Assembly: GCF_009908265.2 (NCBI RefSeq) | Contig: NZ_JAAATX020000004.1 | Location: 124,001-188,000, forward strand | Length of the DNA stretch: 64,000 nucleotides | Source: Paragemmobacter amnigenus | GTDB taxonomy: Bacteria; Pseudomonadota; Alphaproteobacteria; Rhodobacterales; Rhodobacteraceae | Reading direction: 5' to 3' | Shown: one piece after another, positions 1,504-12,623 of the stretch | Layout of the letters: each line of letters starts with the position of its first letter | Position numbering within the stretch: the stretch's first letter is position 1 | Notes under the pieces: model-generated | What the model was told of the DNA's origin: nothing | Seen by the model: only the letters and a program-made list of their open reading frames with translations | Databases searched by the model: none | Translations under genes and position numbers: made by a program

Positions 1504-2721
1504 TCAGCTTGCGGGATGGTCCTGCTCGTATTGCTCGAAGATCCGCGCGAATTCCACGCTGACCTTGTCGAAGGCGGCGAAGAGATCGGGGTCGAACTTC
1601 GTGCCGACCAGCTGCGACATGTTCTGCAAGGCTTCCCTGTGGCTCAGCGCCGCCTTGTAGGGGCGCTGTGACCGCAACGCGTCATAGACATCGATCAGCG
1701 CCATGATCCGCGCCGCCAGCGGAATATCGTCGCGGCTCAGCCCCTCGGGATAGCCGGTGCCGTCCCAGTTCTCATGGTGATAGCGCGCCACATCCTCCGA
1801 AATGGTCAGCACCGGCTCGTCGTCCAACCCGCTCTTTTCGGTGAAATCGCGGATCATCTGGCCGCCCATGCTGGCATGGACCGACATCGCGTCGAACTCT
1901 TCCTTCGACAGCCGTCCGGGCTTCAGAAGGATGCTGTCGGGCACCGCGACCTTGCCGATGTCATGCAGGCGGACGGCCTCGGCCAGATCCGTCTCGTTCA
2001 TCTCCGCCGCCCCCCGGATGCCCGCCTCCCGTGCCGCACCCAGCAGCGCGCGCGCATATTGCGAACACCGCTCGAGATGCGCGCCCGTCTCGTTGTCGCG
2101 ATGGCGCGTGATGGCGACCATGGCATTGATCAGCCCGCGGCGTAGCGTGTCCTGATAGTCCACCATGACCCTGCGCGTCTCGCCCGACACAAGGTACAGC
2201 AACATCCCCGTCATCAGCTGCAGGCACCCCATCAGCAACCAGTTGCTGGGCGAGGACAGGTGCACCCCGATATCCGGCGGCAGCGGGATATAAAGCCCCG
2301 CCACGGCCAGCGCAAAGACCGCGGCCAGCGGAATCGCCAGCAGCAGCAGCGATGCGAACCGCGCGCGCCGCGTGTCCAGGATACCGGCCAGCAGAAGCGC
2401 CACGAAGAAAAGATAGGGCCCGCCCGAGGCCAGCCCGTTCACGGCAAACCCCGTCAGAGCGGCCGATCCGAACAGCGTCAGCAGGAACAGGATGATCTGT
2501 CGCCCGCTCAGCCGCGACCGTATGGCGTAGATGCCGCACCCCACGCAGTAAAGCGCCACGAAGACCGGAAAGCTCTCCGTCTCTCCCACCACCACACGGC
2601 GATAGAGCAGGACCGTGATCAGAAAGCTGAAGAACAGCATGACAACCTTCAGAAGCCGCAGCCCCAGAAGGTGCGAGAAATCATCGTAACGGTGCGCCGA
2701 CGCACCCGCGAGACGGTTCAT
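1504..2721 (-). CDS. Membrane-bound HD-GYP domain phosphodiesterase
   Basis: This is a 405-residue protein with about six hydrophobic segments between residues 20 and 180 and a C-terminal HD-GYP domain from about residue 195. The diagnostic motifs are present: HDIGKVAVPD with the metal-binding HD at 253-254, and the GYP motif at 323-325 inside HHENWDGTGYPEGL. HD-GYP proteins hydrolyse cyclic-di-GMP (or related dinucleotides). The membrane part has no domain I can name and may sense a signal. It lies 204 bp downstream of a hybrid kinase on the same strand and so may belong to the same signalling group. Intact motifs argue for an active enzyme. Confidence 0.88.
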   Translation of the reverse strand: MNRLAGASAHRYDDFSHLLGLRLLKVVMLFFSFLITVLLYRRVVVGETESFPVFVALYCVGCGIYAIRSRLSGRQIILFLLTLFGSAALTGFAVNGLASGGPYLFFVALLLAGILDTRRARFASLLLLAIPLAAVFALAVAGLYIPLPPDIGVHLSSPSNWLLMGCLQLMTGMLLYLVSGETRRVMVDYQDTLRRGLINAMVAITRHRDNETGAHLERCSQYARALLGAAREAGIRGAAEMNETDLAEAVRLHDIGKVAVPDSILLKPGRLSKEEFDAMSVHASMGGQMIRDFTEKSGLDDEPVLTISEDVARYHHENWDGTGYPEGLSRDDIPLAARIMALIDVYDALRSQRPYKAALSHREALQNMSQLVGTKFDPDLFAAFDKVSVEFARIFEQYEQDHPAS

Positions 2722-2925
2722 TCTTTATGGTCCTGCCCGTTTGGCCGTCCGGTTCGCGACGCACTGTCCCACCGGAATTGGCCGCCCCTAGGTTGTGCAA
2801 ATTCGCGTCACAGTCCAGCCATCCCGCCAGTGGCAAAGGTCTGCAAGGTAGATGGGCAGCGCATCGCCCCAACCATCCGAATGGCCCGCAAATCTTTCGC
2901 GCAGCCCATGCATCCCCCGCCGCCT

Positions 2926-5250
2926 TCAGGCCGCCGCCGCCAGCACCGCCTTCTCGGCCCGCGCGCGCAAAAGATCGCAGGCCTCGGCGATCACCGGACC
3001 AAGCCGGACCAGCGCCTCTTCCACCGCCTGCGGGTCGCCCGCCTCGCACAACTGCTCGACCTCCAGCAGTTGCAGACCCAGCCGCTTCATCCCGATGGTC
3101 AGCGTCACCCCCGACAGCCGGTGACAGATCGCGCCGATCCGCTGCAACTCCCGCGTTTGGCGGCATTCCTCATAGCCCGACGTCACACTGTCGCAAACCT
3201 CCTGCGCCAGGGTACCCGCCCGCGCGCCATAGGCCCGCAACAGCGCCTCCATCTGCGGTAGGTCATGCGCGATGACCTCCTCCTCCGCCTCGTGCATCTC
3301 GCCCAGCAGCGCGACGAAGTTCCGCACCGTAAAGGGCTTGGGCAGCACCCCGTCGAACAACCCCTCGCCATCCTGTGCAAAGGGCGAGGCGGCGTAATGC
3401 GCGCTGATCGCAAAGACAGGCGGCACCGCATCGTGCAGCGTCGACCTGATGCGGGAAATCGCGTCATAGCCCGACACCCGCGGCATCCGCAGATCGGTCA
3501 GGATGACATCAAAGCTCTCGGCCAGACAGATATCGACCAGCTCCTGCCCGTCCGACACCAGCGTCACCTGCGCCCCGCAGGCCGACAGATCGTCCACGAT
3601 CACGCGCCCGATGATGGGGTCATCCTCGGCCACCACGATCCGCATCCCCCGCAGGCAGGCATCCGACAGGGTCGCGCCCTTCGGCTGCCCGGGTGCCACG
3701 CGCTGGTCCAGCCGCAGCCAGAACATGCTGCCGCTGCCCTGCCTGCTGTCCGCCCCGACCGTGCCGCCCATCGCCTCGGCCAGCAGCCGCGCCGTCACCA
3801 GACCCAGCCCGTTGCCCTTGGGATTGCGCTCCACCCCGCCCTCCAGCACGCCGGCGCGCTGGAACAGGTGCGACAGCGTACGCTCGTCCATCCCCTCGCC
3901 CGTATCGCTCACCACGATCACGACCTCTGCCAGACCCGGCGCCTTCTCGCGCACCCCGACCTTCAGGGCGATGGTCCCCTGCATCGTGAACTTCGCGGCA
4001 TTGGTCAGGAAATTCAGCAGGATCTGCCGGATCTTCGACCGGTCCCCGACCAGCGGCTCCGCCAGCCCCTCGACCGTCACCTCCAGTTGCACACCGGGAT
4101 AGATCGTCGGCTGCACCGTCTCGATGCAGGCGCGGGCCAACTCCTCGGGGCTATAGGGTTCCTCGTGCACAAGGATATCCGACTGGCTCAGCTTGGCGCA
4201 GTCCAGCACGTCGTCGATCAGCCGTAACAGCCCGTGCGCCTCGCGCGTGGCGTGATCCAGAAACGCCTCGGCCCCGCGGTCCGGCTTGCGCTTCACCGCA
4301 TCGATGGCCGAAAGCAGCGAGAGGAGCGGCGAGCGCAACTCATGCCCCAGCGTCAGGACAAAGGCCAGCCGGTCCCGCAACGGCTGGGTCGCATCCACCG
4401 GCTGCGGGCGGGGCGCACGGCGCAGCAGGACATGCGCCAAGAGGCTCATGACAACCGCGAACAGCACGGGAATGGCCAGTGTCGATGGCCGCAACCAGTG
4501 CCGGTGGACAGAGACTGTCCAGCCGAAGGGCAATTCATGGACTGCATGTTTCGTGAAGAACACCGAAACCAGCCACGAGTCATGGATGCTCAGATTGTCG
4601 ATCCACCGTTCGGCGTGCTGCACCCGCGCACCGTTCGCGTCGCGCAGGTCGACATGCATCCCGACCGGTGCATCCACGTCCAGAAGCGGGCCGAAACTGT
4701 CCACGGAATGGGACAGATAGACATAGCGTAACTGCTGCCCGAAACTGACCTCCCGCACCAGCGACACGGTGGGCACAGCACTCTTGAGTCCGATAAACAC
4801 ATCGGTCAGCACCGCCGCCTTGGTGACCGACGCCCGCTTTTCCGCCTTGAGCGGCACGGCATAGCGCTGGTCCGTCCGTGCGATCGACGGCGGGATGGCC
4901 CCATCTCCCAGCGTCATCATTTCGTAGACCGCCTCTTGTCCGGGGCGGACGATGACGAACCACGCGCCCACCGGTTCGGCAAGATCCGTGGCAAGCTGCC
5001 GCACCTGCGGATCGGGAACGTCATACTGACCAACGGCATTGGCAAACCCGTCCAGAACGGCCTTGCGACGGTCGATCTCGGCCGCGAAACGCGCCTCGAA
5101 GGACCGTGCAAAGGACGTCACCGCCGCCTTTTCGCTGGCACCCGCCCAGAAAAGACCGAAAAGCAGCGCCAGCGCGAATACCAGCGCCGCGCCGCGCGCG
5201 GGCGTCACCTCTGGCCTGCCACGGAACGTGGCGCCGTTCCTGTGGGTCAT
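2926..5250 (-). CDS. Hybrid sensor histidine kinase with REC and HPt domains
   Basis: This 774-residue protein has two membrane segments (about 20-37 and 254-276) enclosing a periplasmic sensor of about 215 residues, possibly CHASE-like at its start. Then come HisKA with phospho-acceptor H303 (GHELRSP), a HATPase domain with N box around 414-418 (FLTNAAKF), G1 DTGEGMD and G2 GNGLGL, a REC domain with Asp586 (TDLRMP), and a C-terminal HPt domain with His710 (CHRLSGV). All phosphorelay residues are present. It starts 4 bp after the LuxR-type regulator gene, so the two are probably one operon and cognate partners: H to D to H within this protein, then the separate regulator. Confidence 0.9.
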   Translation of the reverse strand: MTHRNGATFRGRPEVTPARGAALVFALALLFGLFWAGASEKAAVTSFARSFEARFAAEIDRRKAVLDGFANAVGQYDVPDPQVRQLATDLAEPVGAWFVIVRPGQEAVYEMMTLGDGAIPPSIARTDQRYAVPLKAEKRASVTKAAVLTDVFIGLKSAVPTVSLVREVSFGQQLRYVYLSHSVDSFGPLLDVDAPVGMHVDLRDANGARVQHAERWIDNLSIHDSWLVSVFFTKHAVHELPFGWTVSVHRHWLRPSTLAIPVLFAVVMSLLAHVLLRRAPRPQPVDATQPLRDRLAFVLTLGHELRSPLLSLLSAIDAVKRKPDRGAEAFLDHATREAHGLLRLIDDVLDCAKLSQSDILVHEEPYSPEELARACIETVQPTIYPGVQLEVTVEGLAEPLVGDRSKIRQILLNFLTNAAKFTMQGTIALKVGVREKAPGLAEVVIVVSDTGEGMDERTLSHLFQRAGVLEGGVERNPKGNGLGLVTARLLAEAMGGTVGADSRQGSGSMFWLRLDQRVAPGQPKGATLSDACLRGMRIVVAEDDPIIGRVIVDDLSACGAQVTLVSDGQELVDICLAESFDVILTDLRMPRVSGYDAISRIRSTLHDAVPPVFAISAHYAASPFAQDGEGLFDGVLPKPFTVRNFVALLGEMHEAEEEVIAHDLPQMEALLRAYGARAGTLAQEVCDSVTSGYEECRQTRELQRIGAICHRLSGVTLTIGMKRLGLQLLEVEQLCEAGDPQAVEEALVRLGPVIAEACDLLRARAEKAVLAAAA

Positions 5251-5254
5251 GGCC

Positions 5255-5887
5255 TCAGCCGATGCCCTGCATGACCGCCGTCAGGGCGATCTGCGTCCGG
5301 TTGGCGGCATTCAGCTTGGCGCAGATCGACCGCACATGCGCCTTCACCATGATCTCCGACAGGCCCAGCTCGTTCGCGATGGCCTTGTTGGTCATGCCGC
5401 GCGTGATCCCCTTGACCACATCCATCTCGGCCGGGCTCAGCGCGTCGGACTGCGCCTTGCGCCGCGTCGGCCTGCGCTGCGACACGGCAAAGGAATGCGG
5501 CAGGAACGTCTCGCCAAGGGCCACGAAGCGCACAGCATTGGCCAGAGATTTGAGAGGCAGCGTCTTGGGAATGAACCCCCGCGCGCCCATCTCGATCGCC
5601 CGCAGCGCCCCCTCGGCGCGCACCTGCCCCGAAAACAGCACGACCGATCCCGGAGCATTGGCCGCAACCATCCGCTCCACCCCCTCCACACCGTTCATCC
5701 CGGGCATGTCGAGGTCCAGCAGCAGCACGCTATAGGCCCCGTCCTCGCGGATCACCTTCAACGCCGAATCCACGGATTCGGCATGAGCCGTGCGGAACCC
5801 CGCCTCGTTGTGCAACCATGCACTGGTCATTTCCGCAGTAAGGGTGTGGTCGTCCACCACAAGCACACTGATCGTCTCGCCCTGCAC
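5255..5887 (-). CDS. NarL/FixJ (LuxR-type) response regulator
   Basis: This 210-residue two-domain regulator has an N-terminal receiver with acidic residues near the start (VVDDH), the phospho-acceptor in LLLDLDMPG and a conserved Lys in FIPKTLPL. A C-terminal LuxR helix-turn-helix follows (LSPAEMDVVKGITRG to VKAHVRSICAKLNAANR). I chose the GTG at 5887 because AGGAAAGG lies 7 bp upstream; a TTG 36 bp further upstream has no such site. It heads an operon with the hybrid kinase and faces the stressosome genes across a divergent intergenic region, so it could autoregulate or control both arms. Confidence 0.88.
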   Translation of the reverse strand: MQGETISVLVVDDHTLTAEMTSAWLHNEAGFRTAHAESVDSALKVIREDGAYSVLLLDLDMPGMNGVEGVERMVAANAPGSVVLFSGQVRAEGALRAIEMGARGFIPKTLPLKSLANAVRFVALGETFLPHSFAVSQRRPTRRKAQSDALSPAEMDVVKGITRGMTNKAIANELGLSEIMVKAHVRSICAKLNAANRTQIALTAVMQGIG

Positions 5888-6325
5888 GGTAGCGCCTTTC
5901 CTGTATCTTCCCCCGGATCGCAAATGCGTCTTATCGTTTACTGAACCGCCACATAGACCGCGAAAAATCGTGCAATCTGCCTAAAAACGTGCCGAACATT
6001 ATCGTTATAATAATTCGGTCAAAGCCGTGCACAAACAAGACCCCCCTACGTCATTCATTGACGCTTGGTCTGATTTTTCAGGCCAAAGGTCAGAATTTTT
6101 ATATACTAAAGTGGTAGTCGTAACTAAAGTTTTACTCTGATCTGCTTGCCATAAATGGACTTTCTTGCCATTTTTTACTTTAAAAAATATAAAAGATAAA
6201 AATTAACTAAAGATAAATAAAACCCCGACCCTCGTGGATCAAACCGGCCCCGGAAGCCCATCCCTTATATTGCGGATCGGGAATGCGGCTGATAACGTTC
6301 ACATAGATTAATTCAGGGACAGGCA
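5888..6325. other. AT-rich divergent intergenic region
   Basis: This 438-bp gap separates the two arms of the signalling island. I see no gene in it. Its base composition contrasts strongly with the GC-rich surroundings: positions 6181-6220 contain only 3 G or C in 40. It carries an 8-bp inverted repeat, ATTTTTTA and TAAAAAAT, at 6170-6188, a TATACT at 6102-6107 that could be a -10 element, and a better promoter candidate close to the stressosome genes. Such regions often bind nucleoid proteins; that is inference. Confidence 0.6.
6270..6298 (+). promoter_or_regulatory. Candidate promoter of the stressosome operon
   Basis: TTGCGG at 6270-6275 and TAACGT at 6293-6298 are separated by 17 bp, which fits a housekeeping-type promoter reading toward the RsbR gene at 6326. 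The match is by eye only. Confidence 0.35.
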
Positions 6326-7237
6326 ATGCCAAACCGAGAGTCAGTGAACGATGTGATGCACAAGTTCCGGATCGGTCCGGAGGACCTCGCCCTTGTCAGG
6401 GCAGCGGGCTCCGTCATCCTTCCCGAAATCGACGACCATATCGAGGAATTCTATCACTGGCTCGCCGTCCACGACGAATACCAGACCTTCTTCAGTCATA
6501 ACGAAGGCCGCCTTGCCCGCGTCAAGTCGATGCAGGTCCTGCACTGGAAAACCTTTTTCGAGGCGCAGATCGACGCCGAGTGGATGGCCTCGCGCCGCCA
6601 TGTCGGGGCGGTCCATGCCCATATCAACCTGCCCAACGACATTTATTTCGCTGGCGTCTGCCGCAGCTCGGAATCCATCATCCGCCGCCTGCGCCACATG
6701 GACGACCGCCTTGAACAGATCGAGGCGACGATCGACTCCGTCGGCAAGCTGATGTTCTTCGACGCCTTCGTGGTGATCGAGGAAATCGCCCGCAGCCAGC
6801 GCGAGAAGATCGAGGCCGGCAGCAAGGCCCTGCTCGAGATGTCCACCCCCGTCACCCCGATCTGGGAAGGCATCCTGCTCCTGCCGCTCGTGGGGGTCAT
6901 CGACTCCGAACGCACGCAGGACATCATGACCAAGACTCTCAACAAGATAGCCGAGACGCGCGCCCGCGTCTTCGTGCTCGACATTTCGGGCGTGGGCGCG
7001 ATGGATACGGCCGTCGCCAACCAGCTGATCAAGATCACCCGCGCGACCCAGCTCATGGGATGCGAAACGATCATTTCCGGCGTCTCGCCCACCATCGCCC
7101 GCACTCTTGTCGAACTGGGCGTCAATGTGGGCGATGTCCGCACCACCGCGACCCTGCGCGATTCCTTCGAACTTGCCCTGCGTTCGGTCGGCGCGGGGCG
7201 CGAGCTCTTCGGGTCCGAACGGCCGGTCGCGGGATAG
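6326..7237 (+). CDS. rsbR: RsbR-type stressosome protein (globin-like sensor plus STAS)
   Basis: RsbR proteins form the stressosome shell and present a sensor domain outward. Residues 12-160 look like a protoglobin/globin-coupled sensor; the segment RRHVGAVHAHINLPNDIYF places His97 where globin-coupled sensors carry the proximal haem ligand. Residues 172-290 form a STAS domain. Two threonines, T228 (GAMDTAV) and T260 (IARTLVELG), align with the two RsbT-phosphorylated threonines of Bacillus RsbRA. The ATG at 6326 follows AGGGA. It is the first gene of a tight operon with RsbS-, RsbT/X-, kinase and HD-GYP genes. Family call is firm; haem binding is inference. Confidence 0.9.
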   Translation: MPNRESVNDVMHKFRIGPEDLALVRAAGSVILPEIDDHIEEFYHWLAVHDEYQTFFSHNEGRLARVKSMQVLHWKTFFEAQIDAEWMASRRHVGAVHAHINLPNDIYFAGVCRSSESIIRRLRHMDDRLEQIEATIDSVGKLMFFDAFVVIEEIARSQREKIEAGSKALLEMSTPVTPIWEGILLLPLVGVIDSERTQDIMTKTLNKIAETRARVFVLDISGVGAMDTAVANQLIKITRATQLMGCETIISGVSPTIARTLVELGVNVGDVRTTATLRDSFELALRSVGAGRELFGSERPVAG

Positions 7238-7244
7238 GCGCGCC

Positions 7245-7628
7245 GTGTCCGGCAGGCAGGACCACCGGCAGATGCAGGGCGACCGCTCGGTCGTGCGGAC
7301 ACGCGTGAACGACTGCCTCGTCATCACCGCCCCGCCCGATCTGGGGCAGGGCCGGCTTCAGGAACTCGAACGCCTGACCATCGACGCCCTGTGCGAACAG
7401 AAGGCCACCGCGGTCATCTTCGAACTGACGGGCGTCAACTACATGGACGTGCAGGAATTCCACGACCTGCGGACGGTGGCGACGCTGGTGCGCCACCTTG
7501 GCGCGCGCACGGTCTTCGTCGGGCTCCGCCCGGGGATCATCAGCCATCTGGTCAAATCCGACGCCGACATCTCGGGCATACAGGGCGCGCTCGGGCTGGA
7601 CGACGCGCTTGCCCTCTTCGCGGTCTAG
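7245..7628 (+). CDS. rsbS: RsbS-like STAS protein lacking the usual phospho-serine
   Basis: This single STAS domain protein is the counterpart of RsbS, which builds the stressosome core with RsbR and holds the RsbT kinase. The segments NDCLVITAPPDL, FELTGVNYMD and FVGLRPGIISHLV follow the RsbS pattern. At the place of the phospho-acceptor Ser59 of Bacillus RsbS (MIDSF) this protein reads YMDVQEF, with Val69, so the normal switch residue seems absent. The start is uncertain: GTG at 7245, with GGATAGG 6 bp upstream, gives 127 residues; ATG at 7272 gives 118, closer to the usual length of about 120. It is 7 bp from rsbR and 3 bp from the next gene. Confidence 0.82.
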   Translation: MSGRQDHRQMQGDRSVVRTRVNDCLVITAPPDLGQGRLQELERLTIDALCEQKATAVIFELTGVNYMDVQEFHDLRTVATLVRHLGARTVFVGLRPGIISHLVKSDADISGIQGALGLDDALALFAV

Positions 7629-7631
7629 GCC

Positions 7632-8705
7632 ATGCAGCAACGCCCGGTCCCCGACGGCTCCGTCACCTTCCCCATCGCCGACACGCTCGACCTGCGGATC
7701 GCGATCAGCCGCATGGCAAAACTGCCATGGATGGACCTTGCCGACGATATGGAACGCGGCCTTCTGGCAACCATCGTCTCGGAACTGGGCACCAACATCC
7801 TGAAATACGCAGGCCGCGGCAAGATCACCCTCGCCTTCACCTCGGGCCGCGATGGCCAGTCGGTGGAAATCTCGGCGCGCGACTACGGCCCCGGCATCGA
7901 CGACATCGCCCTTGCGATGAAGGACCATTTCACCACCGGCCACACGCTCGGTCTGGGGCTGCCGGGGGTGCGGCGGATGGCGGACGGGTTCAGCATCTCG
8001 TCCAAACCGGGGCAGGGCACGCTCGTCATCGCGCAAAAGACCATCGGCGGGCGCGGCAGAGGCAGACCCGCGCGCCCCGCCCTGCCCGACGGCCCGCCGC
8101 CGCCCCCGCGCCCGACCCTCGCCGCCACAGGGTGGGAGGCCGGCGCCTTCGTCCGCCCCATGCCCGGCACGATCCGCGGCGGCGACCTCGCCCTGATCCG
8201 GCCCGTGGGCGACTGCATCCTTCTGGCCATCGCCGATGTCACCGGCCATGGCGAACGGGCCCACAGCCTGCGCGGCCGGATCGAATCCCTTGTCCAGACA
8301 TGGGCGGGGCAGGACCCCGCCCTGCTCATGCGCGACATCCACGCCACCCTCATCGGCACCATCGGGGCCGCCGTGGGCCTTCTGCTGATCGACACCGCCG
8401 CCGCGCGCTTTTCCTATGTCGGGGTCGGCAATACCGGCGTGGCACGGGTGGTGGGCGACCGCTGGCGCGGCGTGTCCAAGGACGGGCTGCTCGGCTCGCG
8501 CCTGCCGGGCCTGCTGGCGCAGGACGGCGCGCTGGACCGCGGCGACACCTTCCTGATGTGGACCGACGGCATCTCGGAACTGCAAGGCCCGCGCTACGCA
8601 CAGGAAAACCGCAGCGTCCCCGCCCAGACCCTTGCCCGCAACCTCGCCACCACGCTGGGCAAGCCGCATGACGACGCGGGCTGCGTCCTGTTCCGGTGGC
8701 TGTGA
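7632..8705 (+). CDS. RsbT-type kinase fused to an RsbX-type PP2C phosphatase
   Basis: Residues 1-137 are a GHKL serine kinase of the RsbT/RsbW type: N box [10 protein letters not shown] with Asn55, G1 box DYGPGID at 84-90, G2 box [10 protein letters not shown] at 103-112. A proline-rich linker (about 140-165) leads to an RsbX-like PP2C domain with GGDLALI near 183, DVTGHGE near 202, WTDGISEL near 310 and HDDAG at 346-350. In Bacillus, RsbT and RsbX are separate proteins with opposite actions, phosphorylating and dephosphorylating stressosome proteins. Here both are on one chain. The stop codon overlaps the start of the next gene (TGATG), implying translational coupling to the hybrid kinase. 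Confidence 0.88.
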
Positions 8706-11368
8706 TGGCAGACCTCGCCACGCTCCGCGTCGAAACCGAAGATGACCTGCACGAGGCGCGCGCGCGCTACTTCGCCTTCGTCTCGGAACTGACCGGCACC
8801 CGCGACATCGCGGCGGAACTCACCGGCACCTTCTCGCAGGACCTGCGCCACTGCCTGAACGCGGGCCATGCCGCCCTCGCCCATGTGCAGCTTGCCGAAG
8901 GGCAGGGACAGGCCAACCTCAGGCTCAGCATCCGGCAGACCCCGCCCGATACGCCCGCCGCTGCCCCCCTCGACACGCCCGGCTTCCCCCCCGGCCCGCC
9001 CGTCACGCGCAGCTTCCCCCTTCCCGCCCGCATGCCGTCACCGGACCGGCTGCAACGGCTCTCGGCCATCCTGAACGAGAAATCGCGCAACGAACTCTTC
9101 CGCGAACTCAACGACAAGAACCTCCAGCTACAGGCCGCCACGCAAGAGGCGCTCTCGGCCGCGCAGGCCAAATCCGAATTCCTCGCCAATATGAGCCACG
9201 AGATCCGCACCCCCATGAACGCGATCATGGGCATGGCGAACCTCGTTCTGGACACCGACCTCAACCCGCGCCAGCGCAACCATGTCGAACGCATCCAGCA
9301 ATCGGCGCGCAACCTTCTGTCGATCATCAACGACCTTCTCGATTTCTCCAAGATCGAGGCCGGCCGCATGACCATCGAACAGACCGATTTCCCCAGCGAA
9401 ACCCTGTTCCGCGACCTCGTCTCGGTCGTGTCGGACAGGGCGGAGTCCAAGGGGCTGGAACTCGTCTTCCGCATCGCCCCCGACGTGCCCGCCACCCTGC
9501 ACGGCGATCCGCTGCGGATCGGCCAGATCCTCATCAATCTGGTCAACAACGCCATCAAATTCACCGAAAAGGGCGAGGTGGTGGTCGACGCCTCGGTTCT
9601 GGAACAGCACGACACCCACCTCGTCCTGCATTTCGGGGTCAGGGACACGGGCATCGGCATCCACCCCCGCCATATCGGCCAGCTCTTCCGCAGCTTCGAA
9701 CAGGGCGATGCCTCGACCACGCGGCGCTTCGGCGGCACGGGTCTGGGCCTCGTGATCTGCAAGCAACTGGCCGAGATGATGGGCGGCACCGTCGGTGTGG
9801 AAAGCGAATTCGGGCAGGGCTCGCAGTTCTGGTTCACCCTGCGCCTGCCCCATGCCGAACGCCAGCCGCCCCTGCCCGATACCTCGCCCCTGCACGGGCG
9901 CATCGTGGCGGTGGTCGACGACAACGACTCCGCCCGCGACGCCATCGCCGATCTCCTGCGCTCGCTCGGGGCGGTTCCGGTCCCCCTCGGCTCGGGCGAG
10001 GCGCTGCGCGCGCTCCTGCAGGCCGACCCTGCCGGCAGCGGGATCGACGTCGCCCTGATCGACAGCACGCTGGACGGCGAAAGCGGCCCCGACCTTGCCG
10101 CCACCGTCCGCAGGCTCGACCTGCCGCGCCTGCCGAAACTCGTCCTCCTCTCCACACTGGGGTTCGAGATCGTCCACGCCGCCCGCATCCACGACACCTT
10201 TGACGACACGCTCTGCAAACCCGCGCTGCGCTCGTCCCTGATGCACACCCTCCACAACGCCATCTTCCCCGCCCCCTCCGGCACCGCCGATGCGCCCGAC
10301 ACCCGACGCGGGCCCAGACGCGACAGCGTGGCGCGCGACTATTCCCGCCTGCGCGTGCTGGTGGTCGAGGATAACGAGATCAACCGCGAGGTCGCCGTCG
10401 GCCTCTTCGGCCAGCGCGGCCTGACCATCGAGACGGCGGTGAACGGTCAGGACGGCGTGACCCGCGCCTCGGCGGAACCGTGGGACATCATCTTCATGGA
10501 CATGCACATGCCCGTGATGGACGGCATCAGTGCTACGCAGGCCATCCGCAGGCTGCCCGACCGGCAGGACCTGCCGATCATCGCCCTCACCGCCAATGCC
10601 ATGGCCGAGGACCGCGACCGCTGCCTGCACGCAGGCATGAACGACTTTGTCAGCAAACCCATAGACCCCCGCGAATTGTGGCGCATCCTCGACCGCTGGG
10701 TGCCCGACACGGGCCCCGCCTTGCCCGACATGGCGCAGACCGCCCCCGCCCCCGCGCACGATGCCCCGTCACCGGCGGCACTCCCGTCCTCCGACCTGAT
10801 CGACCCCGCCGCCCTCCTGCACAACACGGGCGGCGACGTGACGCTGGCCCTGTCGATCCTGCGCGGATTTGCCCAACGCAATCCCGACTTCCTGCCCGCC
10901 TGCCGGACCGCGCTCGCCGCAGGCAACCTGACCGAACTGGAACGCGCCGCCCATACGATGAAGGGCGTCGCCGCCAATATCGGCGCGCCCCTCCTCTCGG
11001 CCGCCGCCGGCGCGCTCGAAACCGCAACGCGGGCGGGCGCAGCGCAGGACGAGCTTTCCGCCCTCCTCGACGCCCTCTCCCGCCCGCTCGACCGCCTTCT
11101 TGCCGACCTGACCGCCGTCTTCGACGCGCCCCCCGCCGCCCCGCCGCCGCCGCCCGCGGCGGACGACGCCGACGGCGCGGCGCGGGAACTGCGCGGCTTC
11201 ACCGCCCTTCTCGCGGCCGACGACTTCCAGGTCCCCGCCGCCTTCCAGCGCCTCTCGCCCGCCGCCCGCGCCCATCTGGGCCCCGACCTCGACCGGCTGC
11301 AGCGCGCCATCACCGGATATGACTACGAAACGGCCCTGTCGATCCTCGCCCTGCGCGGCTTCGACTAG
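8705..11368 (+). CDS. Cytoplasmic hybrid histidine kinase with two REC domains and HPt
   Basis: This is an 887-residue protein without membrane segments. After an unassigned N-terminal region (1-110) and a coiled-coil (110-155) it has HisKA with His165 ([15 protein letters not shown]), HATPase with G boxes DTGIGI and GGTGLGL, a first REC with Asp453 (LIDSTLDG), a second REC with Asp599 ([10 protein letters not shown]), and an HPt domain with His750 ([12 protein letters not shown]). The last 85 residues are proline- and alanine-rich, ending in a small helical piece. The start is the ATG overlapping the RsbT/X stop; an in-frame GTG 9 bp upstream is less likely. Its unassigned N-terminus may be the link to the stressosome output; that is inference. 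Confidence 0.88.
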
Positions 11369-11382
11369 CAAGGACATCCCCC

Positions 11383-12474
11383 ATGGCGACCGGCTTCAAA
11401 CACACCGTGCTCCTCGTCGACGACGCGCCAGAAAACATCGAACTGATCGGTGGCCTCCTCAGCCTGCATTACAGGGTCAAGGTCGCCTCCAGCGGCGAAC
11501 GCGCGCTCAAGATGCTCTCCTCCGGCGACCCGCCGGACCTCATCCTGCTCGACGTGGTCATGCCCGGCATCTCGGGCTGGGACGTCTGCCGCGCGATCAA
11601 GGCCCAGCCCCACCTCCAGCACATCCCCGTGATCTTCCTCACCGCCCGCGCCGACATGAAGGACGAACGCGAAGGTCTGGAACTCGGCGCGGTCGACTAC
11701 ATCACCAAACCGATCAGCCCGCCCATCCTCATGGCCCGCGTCGCCACCCATGTGCAGCTCAAACAGGCCCGCGACCTGCTGCGCGACAACAACGCCTACC
11801 TCACGGCCGAGGTGAAGCGCCGCACGGCCGAGATTTCCGCGCTTCAGGATGTCACCGTCGTCGCCCTCGCCTCGCTGGCCGAAACCCGCGACAACGAAAC
11901 GGGCAACCACATCCGCCGCACCCAGCTCTATATCGAGGCACTGGTCACCGCCCTCCGGCCCCACCCGAAATTCGCGGATTTCCTGACCGAGGACGAGGCC
12001 GCGATCATCGTCCGCGCCGCCCCCCTGCATGACATCGGCAAGGTCGGCATCCCCGACCGCATCCTGCTCAAACCCGGACGGCTCGACCCCGACGAATTCG
12101 AGATCATGAAGACCCACACCCGCCTTGGCCATGACGCGCTGGTGCGCGCCGAACAGGCCATGCCCTTCAAAAGCCGCTTCCTGCGCGAGGCGCGCGACAT
12201 CGCCCTCTCGCATCACGAACGCTGGGACGGCAAGGGCTATCCCGACGGCCTCGCAGGCGACCGTATCCCCGTCTCGGCACGGCTGATGGCGGTGGCCGAT
12301 GTCTACGACGCCCTCATCAGCAAACGCTGCTACAAAGAGGCCATGCCCCAATCCACCGCGCTCGAGATCATCGCGCAGGGCGCGGGCACCCATTTCGACC
12401 CCGACATCGCCGCCGCCTTCCTGTCCATCTCGGACAAGGCGGCCCGCATCGCCGCCACCTTCGTCGACCCCTGA
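11383..12474 (+). CDS. Response regulator with HD-GYP phosphodiesterase output
   Basis: This 363-residue protein has an N-terminal REC domain with Asp57 (LILLDVVMPG) and conserved Lys in YITKPI. A helical linker (125-155) leads to an HD-GYP domain: HDIGKVGIPD with HD at 216-217 and GYP at 285-287 in HHERWDGKGYPDGL. The arrangement is that of RpfG, whose phosphorylation controls cyclic-di-GMP hydrolysis. It starts 14 bp after the hybrid kinase gene and is most simply its target. It closes the stressosome operon, which would make cyclic-di-GMP level an output of the module. Confidence 0.9.
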   Translation: MATGFKHTVLLVDDAPENIELIGGLLSLHYRVKVASSGERALKMLSSGDPPDLILLDVVMPGISGWDVCRAIKAQPHLQHIPVIFLTARADMKDEREGLELGAVDYITKPISPPILMARVATHVQLKQARDLLRDNNAYLTAEVKRRTAEISALQDVTVVALASLAETRDNETGNHIRRTQLYIEALVTALRPHPKFADFLTEDEAAIIVRAAPLHDIGKVGIPDRILLKPGRLDPDEFEIMKTHTRLGHDALVRAEQAMPFKSRFLREARDIALSHHERWDGKGYPDGLAGDRIPVSARLMAVADVYDALISKRCYKEAMPQSTALEIIAQGAGTHFDPDIAAAFLSISDKAARIAATFVDP

Positions 12475-12547: not shown

Positions 12548-12623
12548 TGGTGGAGCAGAGGGGGATCGAACCCCTGACCTTATCATTGCGAACGATACGC
12601 TCTCCCAACTGAGCTACTGCCCC
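12548..12623 (-). tRNA. tRNA-Ala, anticodon CGC
   Basis: The minus strand folds into a full cloverleaf of 76 nt including an encoded CCA end. The acceptor stem GGGGCAG pairs with CTGCTCC and contains the G3-U70 pair that marks alanine tRNAs. The anticodon loop TTCGCAA gives CGC, reading the alanine codon GCG. The T arm AGGGGTTCGATCCCCCT is standard. Confidence 0.92.

Follow-up and report, generated by a model that had tools for sequence, protein, structure and literature searches.

The closest described relative of the system treated here is the rsbRSTX-D1-D2 locus of Vibrio vulnificus, which has been published with two-component genes predicted to degrade cyclic di-GMP (c-di-GMP), and in the same work globin-type RSTX modules are listed together with the genes that follow them, which are of eleven kinds and include phosphorelays in Ruegeria (PMC9237108, PMC10014275). 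No RsbU_N domain is reported there to have been found in VvD1, and how a stressosome passes on its signal without RsbU is stated to be an open question (PMC9237108). The subject of the present analysis is an operon of Paragemmobacter amnigenus (assembly GCF_009908265.2, contig NZ_JAAATX020000004.1, positions 124,001 to 188,000; this 64,000-nucleotide stretch is referred to as the window), the five genes of which lie on the + strand within positions 6326-12474 and encode RsbR, RsbS, RsbT joined to RsbX, a hybrid histidine kinase and a REC-HD-GYP protein. A globin RsbR, RsbS, RsbT, RsbX, a two-component kinase and a predicted c-di-GMP degrader are common to this locus and that of V. vulnificus, but in the window RsbT and RsbX are fused, and the accessible descriptions of V. 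vulnificus D1 make no mention of an RsbT-like N-terminus such as the kinase carries here. The general wiring of rsbRSTX genes to two-component genes and c-di-GMP removal, which was the main claim of a preliminary description of this DNA, is already known, because the V. vulnificus locus has been published with the same inferred output. What appears to be new is the RsbT-RsbX fusion together with a degenerate RsbT domain on the output of a known type of system.

The stressosome of Moorella thermoacetica is likewise tied to c-di-GMP, through the diguanylate cyclase MtG (work of Quin et al. 2012, cited by PMC4976288 and PMC12143880), but MtG is coupled through RsbU_N and makes c-di-GMP, whereas in the window the coupling domain is RsbT-like and removal of c-di-GMP is predicted. 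With RsbT and RsbU of Bacillus subtilis, too, an RsbT-family protein controls an output enzyme via a helical linker (PMC12143880). Unlike B. subtilis RsbU, however, the window system is without RsbU_N. The SiaABCD system of Pseudomonas aeruginosa differs in having no stressosome, and there SiaB stands as a protein of its own and c-di-GMP is made by SiaD. A search of open PubMed Central, with supplements and subscription papers outside its scope, turned up no account in which a stressosome output carries an RsbT-like or dead-kinase N-terminus.

The N-terminal domain of the hybrid kinase

The previously unassigned N-terminal domain of the hybrid kinase, labelled HKN here, matched the RsbT profile with E values of 2.7e-4 and 8.6e-4, the 11 control profiles giving 0.09 or worse, which points to a relationship with the RsbT/SpoIIAB family of GHKL anti-sigma kinases that is graded as moderate because the hhalign probability was low. 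The structural model of HKN is alpha/beta; Foldseek alone gave a weak result that left the fold unsettled, VIA-align gave moderate support for an anti-sigma-kinase fold, and the modelled domain is assigned to the RsbT/SpoIIAB fold with moderate confidence. Pfam placed 16 HKN members in no family, the lone stronger match being HisKA (E 4e-4) in one member and from the end of the segment, and a PDB profile search with HKN returned unrelated chains only. RsbU_N was excluded as the coupling domain by the alpha/beta model and by the lack of any match to PF08673, which gave no hit in the genome at E 1, with B. subtilis among the controls that it did detect, and was not among the matches of the 16 HKN members. 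The earlier statement that no RsbU is present thus stands for the locus and, at that threshold, for RsbU_N in the genome; one further SpoIIE-type phosphatase is encoded elsewhere, together with a REC domain in the same open frame, and no search by family was made for RsbV or sigma-B. With TIGR01925, the model for anti-sigma-F, no genome match was better than the window's own RsbT.

HKN and the RsbT of the same loci differ in the residues that they keep. An arginine in alpha-1 is present in 28/28 HKN rows but in 0/29 RsbT rows, whereas the N-box asparagine is found in one of the 28 HKN rows and in all 29 of RsbT, in which the catalytic motifs are intact throughout; the G1-box glycines occur in 1/28 and 0/28 HKN rows, the alignment being uncertain in that region. 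A first count of the arginine, made without near-duplicates, gave 24/24 against 0/22 and was repeated on all readable rows, of which the 28 for HKN came from the HKN search itself (9) and by way of RsbR (19). By its sequence HKN is a degenerate relative of RsbT and not a working kinase. In SpoIIAB, according to PMC10345196, Arg20 mediates sigma-F binding and, with Ser45, forms part of a residue cluster where SpoIIAA binds, while Glu46 and Asn50 have catalytic roles. R19 of RsbT has been implicated in RsbU binding (PMC12143880). The spacing between the HKN arginine and the serine at the N-box position is 25, as between Arg20 and Ser45 of SpoIIAB. R19 of RsbT presumably falls in the same column as the HKN arginine. 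It would appear that the partner face has been kept by HKN and catalysis by RsbT.

Since HKN keeps the partner-binding arginine of the SpoIIAB/RsbT family while its ATP site has been lost, it would dock on the stressosome core or on RsbT. The whole reading, that HKN is a docking arm through which the stressosome is coupled to exchangeable outputs, seems to us probable, if only slightly so; that HKN is a relative of RsbT is held with higher confidence. A published attempt to show an interaction between VvRsbT and VvD1 failed, according to PMC9237108, and is counted against contact with the kinase. The same source proposes that downstream kinases without RsbU_N are phosphorylated by RsbT, so that RsbT released from the stressosome would act on the kinase, perhaps on HKN or the linker, and HKN would be a substrate or transient target. 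The intact motifs of RsbT are in keeping with such a role, as is the serine at the N-box position in 26/28 HKN rows, but serine also stands there in 28/29 catalytic RsbT rows and so looks like a family feature and not an acceptor, and the HKN fold matches the kinase family, not the STAS substrates; we think this explanation quite improbable. At the position of the HKN arginine the RsbT of the close loci (the window and 23 others) has a hydrophobic I/V/L/M in 19/20 rows, a possible trace of paired evolution. It would suit a pseudokinase-kinase heterodimer of HKN and the RsbT half in which pairing, and not STAS docking, carries the signal, and RsbT-family proteins are dimers; this is unlikely in our view, but less so than phosphorylation of the kinase.

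The suggestion that the kinase N-terminus is the likely point of stressosome contact is strengthened by its RsbT-family character and by its neighbourhood. Matches to HKN were obtained in 16 of 398 Pseudomonadota genomes (E values up to 0.001, with scoring limited to 10 first-look candidates in each genome), and in 16/16 the matched gene was directly 3' of RsbT/RsbX with RsbR and RsbS preceding, the window's own locus being counted. Six of these loci (L069, L070, L073, L074, L076, L077) have an RsbT-like N-terminus on the matched kinase, with ATP motifs intact in five and lost in L074, and in this group the arginine is kept both in the separate RsbT (6/6) and in the kinase N-terminus (6/6). 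A reverse search of 398 genomes with RsbT-RsbX at E 1e-30 found 23, which with three sub-limit genomes found through HKN gave 26 wider loci. The next gene begins with HKN or an RsbT-like domain in 20 of them, L133 being doubtful (E 9e-3), and none was detected with a wider profile at L129, L130, L134, L136 and L137, the E values of this check applying to a small set of frames. The domains joined to HKN are those of phosphorelay kinases, GAF-HD-GYP or GGDEF; at L081:3028-3984 HKN is fused directly to GGDEF, a type of enzyme that makes c-di-GMP, and L078:2547-5033 reads HKN-PAS-PAS-GGDEF-EAL. It could be argued that the kinase and HD-GYP genes share no more than a transcript with the stressosome and receive their signal from elsewhere, given that outputs vary among loci and some downstream kinases have no detectable HKN, but all 16 HKN matches lie behind RsbT/RsbX and the position of HKN is constant while its partner domains change, so that this is very unlikely.

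A broader proposal, which we put forward tentatively and at a little under an even chance, is that an RsbT-family kinase was copied onto outputs, where its catalytic activity disappeared, and that the RsbT left behind lost the arginine for partner binding, docking and catalysis being divided between them. HKN would then be an exchangeable plug that suits histidine kinases as well as HD-GYP and GGDEF proteins, in Pseudomonadota, Gemmatimonadota and Planctomycetota, and this would explain stressosome output without RsbU_N, the V. vulnificus type included. At the Vibrio-type locus L090, the RsbR of which scores 557 bits against the V. vulnificus chain, a PAS-HisKA-HATPase-REC-REC-Hpt kinase is followed by REC-HD-GYP; HKN is matched only weakly in this kinase (E 2.3e-4, profile positions 111-142), with the arginine in place. 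No Pfam match to PAS was obtained in the window's kinase. HKN offers a concrete answer to the question of how the signal leaves without RsbU, and a single domain and a single residue would be enough to test it. If the proposal were true, HKN would be a marker domain for spotting stressosome outputs in genomes, and a kinase and its dead copy would share out one function. Six loci (L084, L085, L088, L089, L091, L092) have three RsbT-like domains in series, in the order separate RsbT, RsbT-RsbX protein and kinase start, the last of which is not recognised by the RsbT/X profile in L089.

Sensor core and kinase-phosphatase fusion

The locus is a Gram-negative, globin-type (Vibrio-type) stressosome, and two features went unremarked in the preliminary description, the haem-type globin sensor of RsbR and the fusion of RsbT with RsbX. 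Among solved structures the closest to RsbR, along nearly its full length, is V. vulnificus RsbR (7o0i; phmmer E 2.1e-84), and Tyr43 (haem pocket) and His97 (proximal), with roles taken from the Vibrio and globin literature, are conserved in 19/19 aligned rows. These counts use 19 of the 24 close-locus rows, and in two of them (L039, L046) the row overran the gene end by one stop, the counted columns preceding the overrun. Haem binding is predicted. The STAS phosphosites Ser194 and Thr228, which are Ser199 and Thr233 in the V. vulnificus numbering of PMC9237108, are likewise conserved in 19/19 rows.

RsbS matches its 7o0i counterpart (E 6.6e-11), but Val69 (codon 7449-7451) occupies the canonical phosphoacceptor position, which is S/T in 10/21 close loci and free to vary, compared with serine in the 5/5 shown from the group with RsbT-like kinases; the phosphosites of V. 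brasiliensis RsbS are also described as not conserved (PMC4976288, section 7). Because this position varies, a classical, Bacillus-type phosphoswitch in RsbS was rejected, and the switch in globin-type loci of this kind may therefore run via phosphorylation of RsbR.

After RsbS comes an RsbT with intact GHKL motifs, as in Vibrio-type modules, but in place of a separate single-domain RsbX PP2C protein there is a kinase-phosphatase fusion. RsbT and RsbX are fused in a single frame in 19/20 close loci; in L046, a draft genome, the two parts are in different frames (L046:6148-7325); a close relative, L048, has one frame. RsbX is separate in several wider loci, e.g. L080, L081, L083 and L090. A structure model search with RsbT-RsbX confirmed the phosphatase half alone, the matches listed being all to that half, and the closest structure to the X domain is 3zt9, the title of which concerns stressosomes and second-messenger signalling.

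Proposed signal path and c-di-GMP output

In the proposed mechanism RsbR and RsbS would build the STAS core, and oxygen would be sensed by the haem globin domain of RsbR, a property in print for Vibrio relatives and extended to this locus by homology. When oxygen is lost, RsbR would be phosphorylated at Ser194/Thr228 by the RsbT half and reset in cis by the RsbX half; the direction of the switch is held with lower confidence than the docking-arm reading as a whole. HKN, docked on the core or paired with RsbT, would report the state of the core to the kinase through the helical linker, and the kinase would relay phosphate via its receivers and Hpt to REC-HD-GYP, which would remove c-di-GMP. If this were true, oxygen sensing would be tied to c-di-GMP removal in free-living bacteria.

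The output protein has an HD_5 domain with HD and GYP motifs, and c-di-GMP hydrolysis is predicted. HD-GYP is present at 14/16 informative close loci: as a downstream REC-HD-GYP protein (window, L039, L041, L043), an upstream REC-HD-GYP (L040, L058) or DUF3369-HD protein (L047, L049), or fused to HKN (L046, L050, L051, L052, L054, L056), but not at L044 and L045; the remaining loci (L042, L048, L053, L055, L057, L059, L060, L061) lie near contig ends or have partial RsbR only. Among the 26 wider loci HD-GYP occurs in two (window, L090) within the stretch examined, and GGDEF or HD-GYP is in or near the locus in 13, several stretches ending at contig ends. HD-GYP as the output is therefore supported in the close globin family. 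The refuting condition set in the preliminary description, absence of the kinase and HD-GYP genes from most genomes with the RsbRST part, does not apply to that family but does apply to RsbRST loci at large. The genome has 9 GGDEF and 3 HD_5 matches, and c-di-GMP is therefore likely to be in use by the host. Two of the three HD_5 genes lie within 11 kb, and two GGDEF genes are found at C4:110363-112893, ~11-14 kb before the window.

Genomic setting and features of the locus

The operon is an accessory gene set, a match to RsbR at E 1e-10 being found in 1/19 genomes of the genus, the window's own. In a family sample of 149 genomes RsbR-like STAS matches at E 1e-33 or better were found in five others, all of them far more distant. 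Of the 23 further loci found elsewhere, 20 match most of RsbR at 54-70% identity, and their hosts are Caulobacteraceae, Polynucleobacter and other Burkholderiaceae, a gammaproteobacterium, Crenothrix, Gemmatimonadota and Planctomycetota. The thioredoxin gene next to the locus is present in 18/19 genus genomes and stays together with tRNA-Ala in 7/7 relatives fetched; RsbR, RsbT-RsbX and REC-HD-GYP were not found beyond the tRNA in any of the seven (E 1e-15), two of which have another kinase there that matches the kinase core alone. tRNA-Ala(CGC) divides the genus-conserved thioredoxin side from the variable operon side. These observations fit a putative horizontal arrival at a tRNA site.

The features are collected in Table 1. 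The five tightly spaced genes described earlier agree with the coordinates and Pfam assignments, as does the stop-start overlap of the kinase, the ATG of which at 8705 shares one base with the preceding stop (TGATG). A start of RsbS later than the GTG at 7245 is possible.

Table 1. Coordinates (in the window), intergenic distances and domain evidence for the operon and the adjoining tRNA gene
Feature	Position	Strand	Gap before (bases)	Description and evidence
RsbR	6326-7237	+		Protoglobin sensor, residues 5-155 (Pfam E 2.7e-23); STAS, residues 176-267 (E 1.3e-14); phmmer, aligned rows
RsbS	7245-7628	+	7	Single STAS (Pfam E 4.2e-6); GTG start; 7o0i match
RsbT-RsbX fusion	7632-8705	+	3	GHKL switch kinase, residues ~10-138 (HATPase_c E 8.2e-11); PP2C phosphatase, residues ~165-357 (SpoIIE E 1.6e-9)
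Hybrid histidine kinase	8705-11368	+	-1	HKN-HisKA-HATPase-REC-REC-Hpt; open reading frame, Pfam (HisKA, HATPase_c, two REC stretches, Hpt)
HKN	8705-9031	+		Degenerate RsbT-family domain; profiles, model, alignment
HKN invariant Arg codon	8759-8761	+		Arg20, numbering from GTG at 8702
Helical linker into HisKA	9032-9166	+		Conserved K-S/T-R-x-E-L element; alignment; modelled helices 114-125, 129-160
HisKA	9167-9364	+		Pfam
Kinase HATPase_c	9503-9850	+		Pfam
Second receiver domain	10355-10687	+		Better of two REC stretches; Pfam
Hpt domain	10856-11098	+		Pfam
REC-HD-GYP output protein	11383-12474	+	14	Pfam (REC; HD_5 E 1.6e-32); HD and GYP motifs in translation
tRNA-Ala (CGC)	12548-12623	-		Adjoins operon end

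On the other side of the operon divergent genes occupy 1504-5923 on the - strand. A response regulator of the LuxR type is encoded at 5255-5923, another hybrid kinase at 2926-5250 and another HD-domain protein at 1504-2721 (HD_5 E 4e-30). When this kinase/LuxR/HD-GYP cluster was considered as part of the system, the upstream-kinase and LuxR queries hit other kinases and receivers everywhere, without any conserved divergent pair becoming apparent. Immediately 5' of RsbR, positions 6000-6300 are, by eye, markedly A+T-rich compared with the G+C-rich genes.
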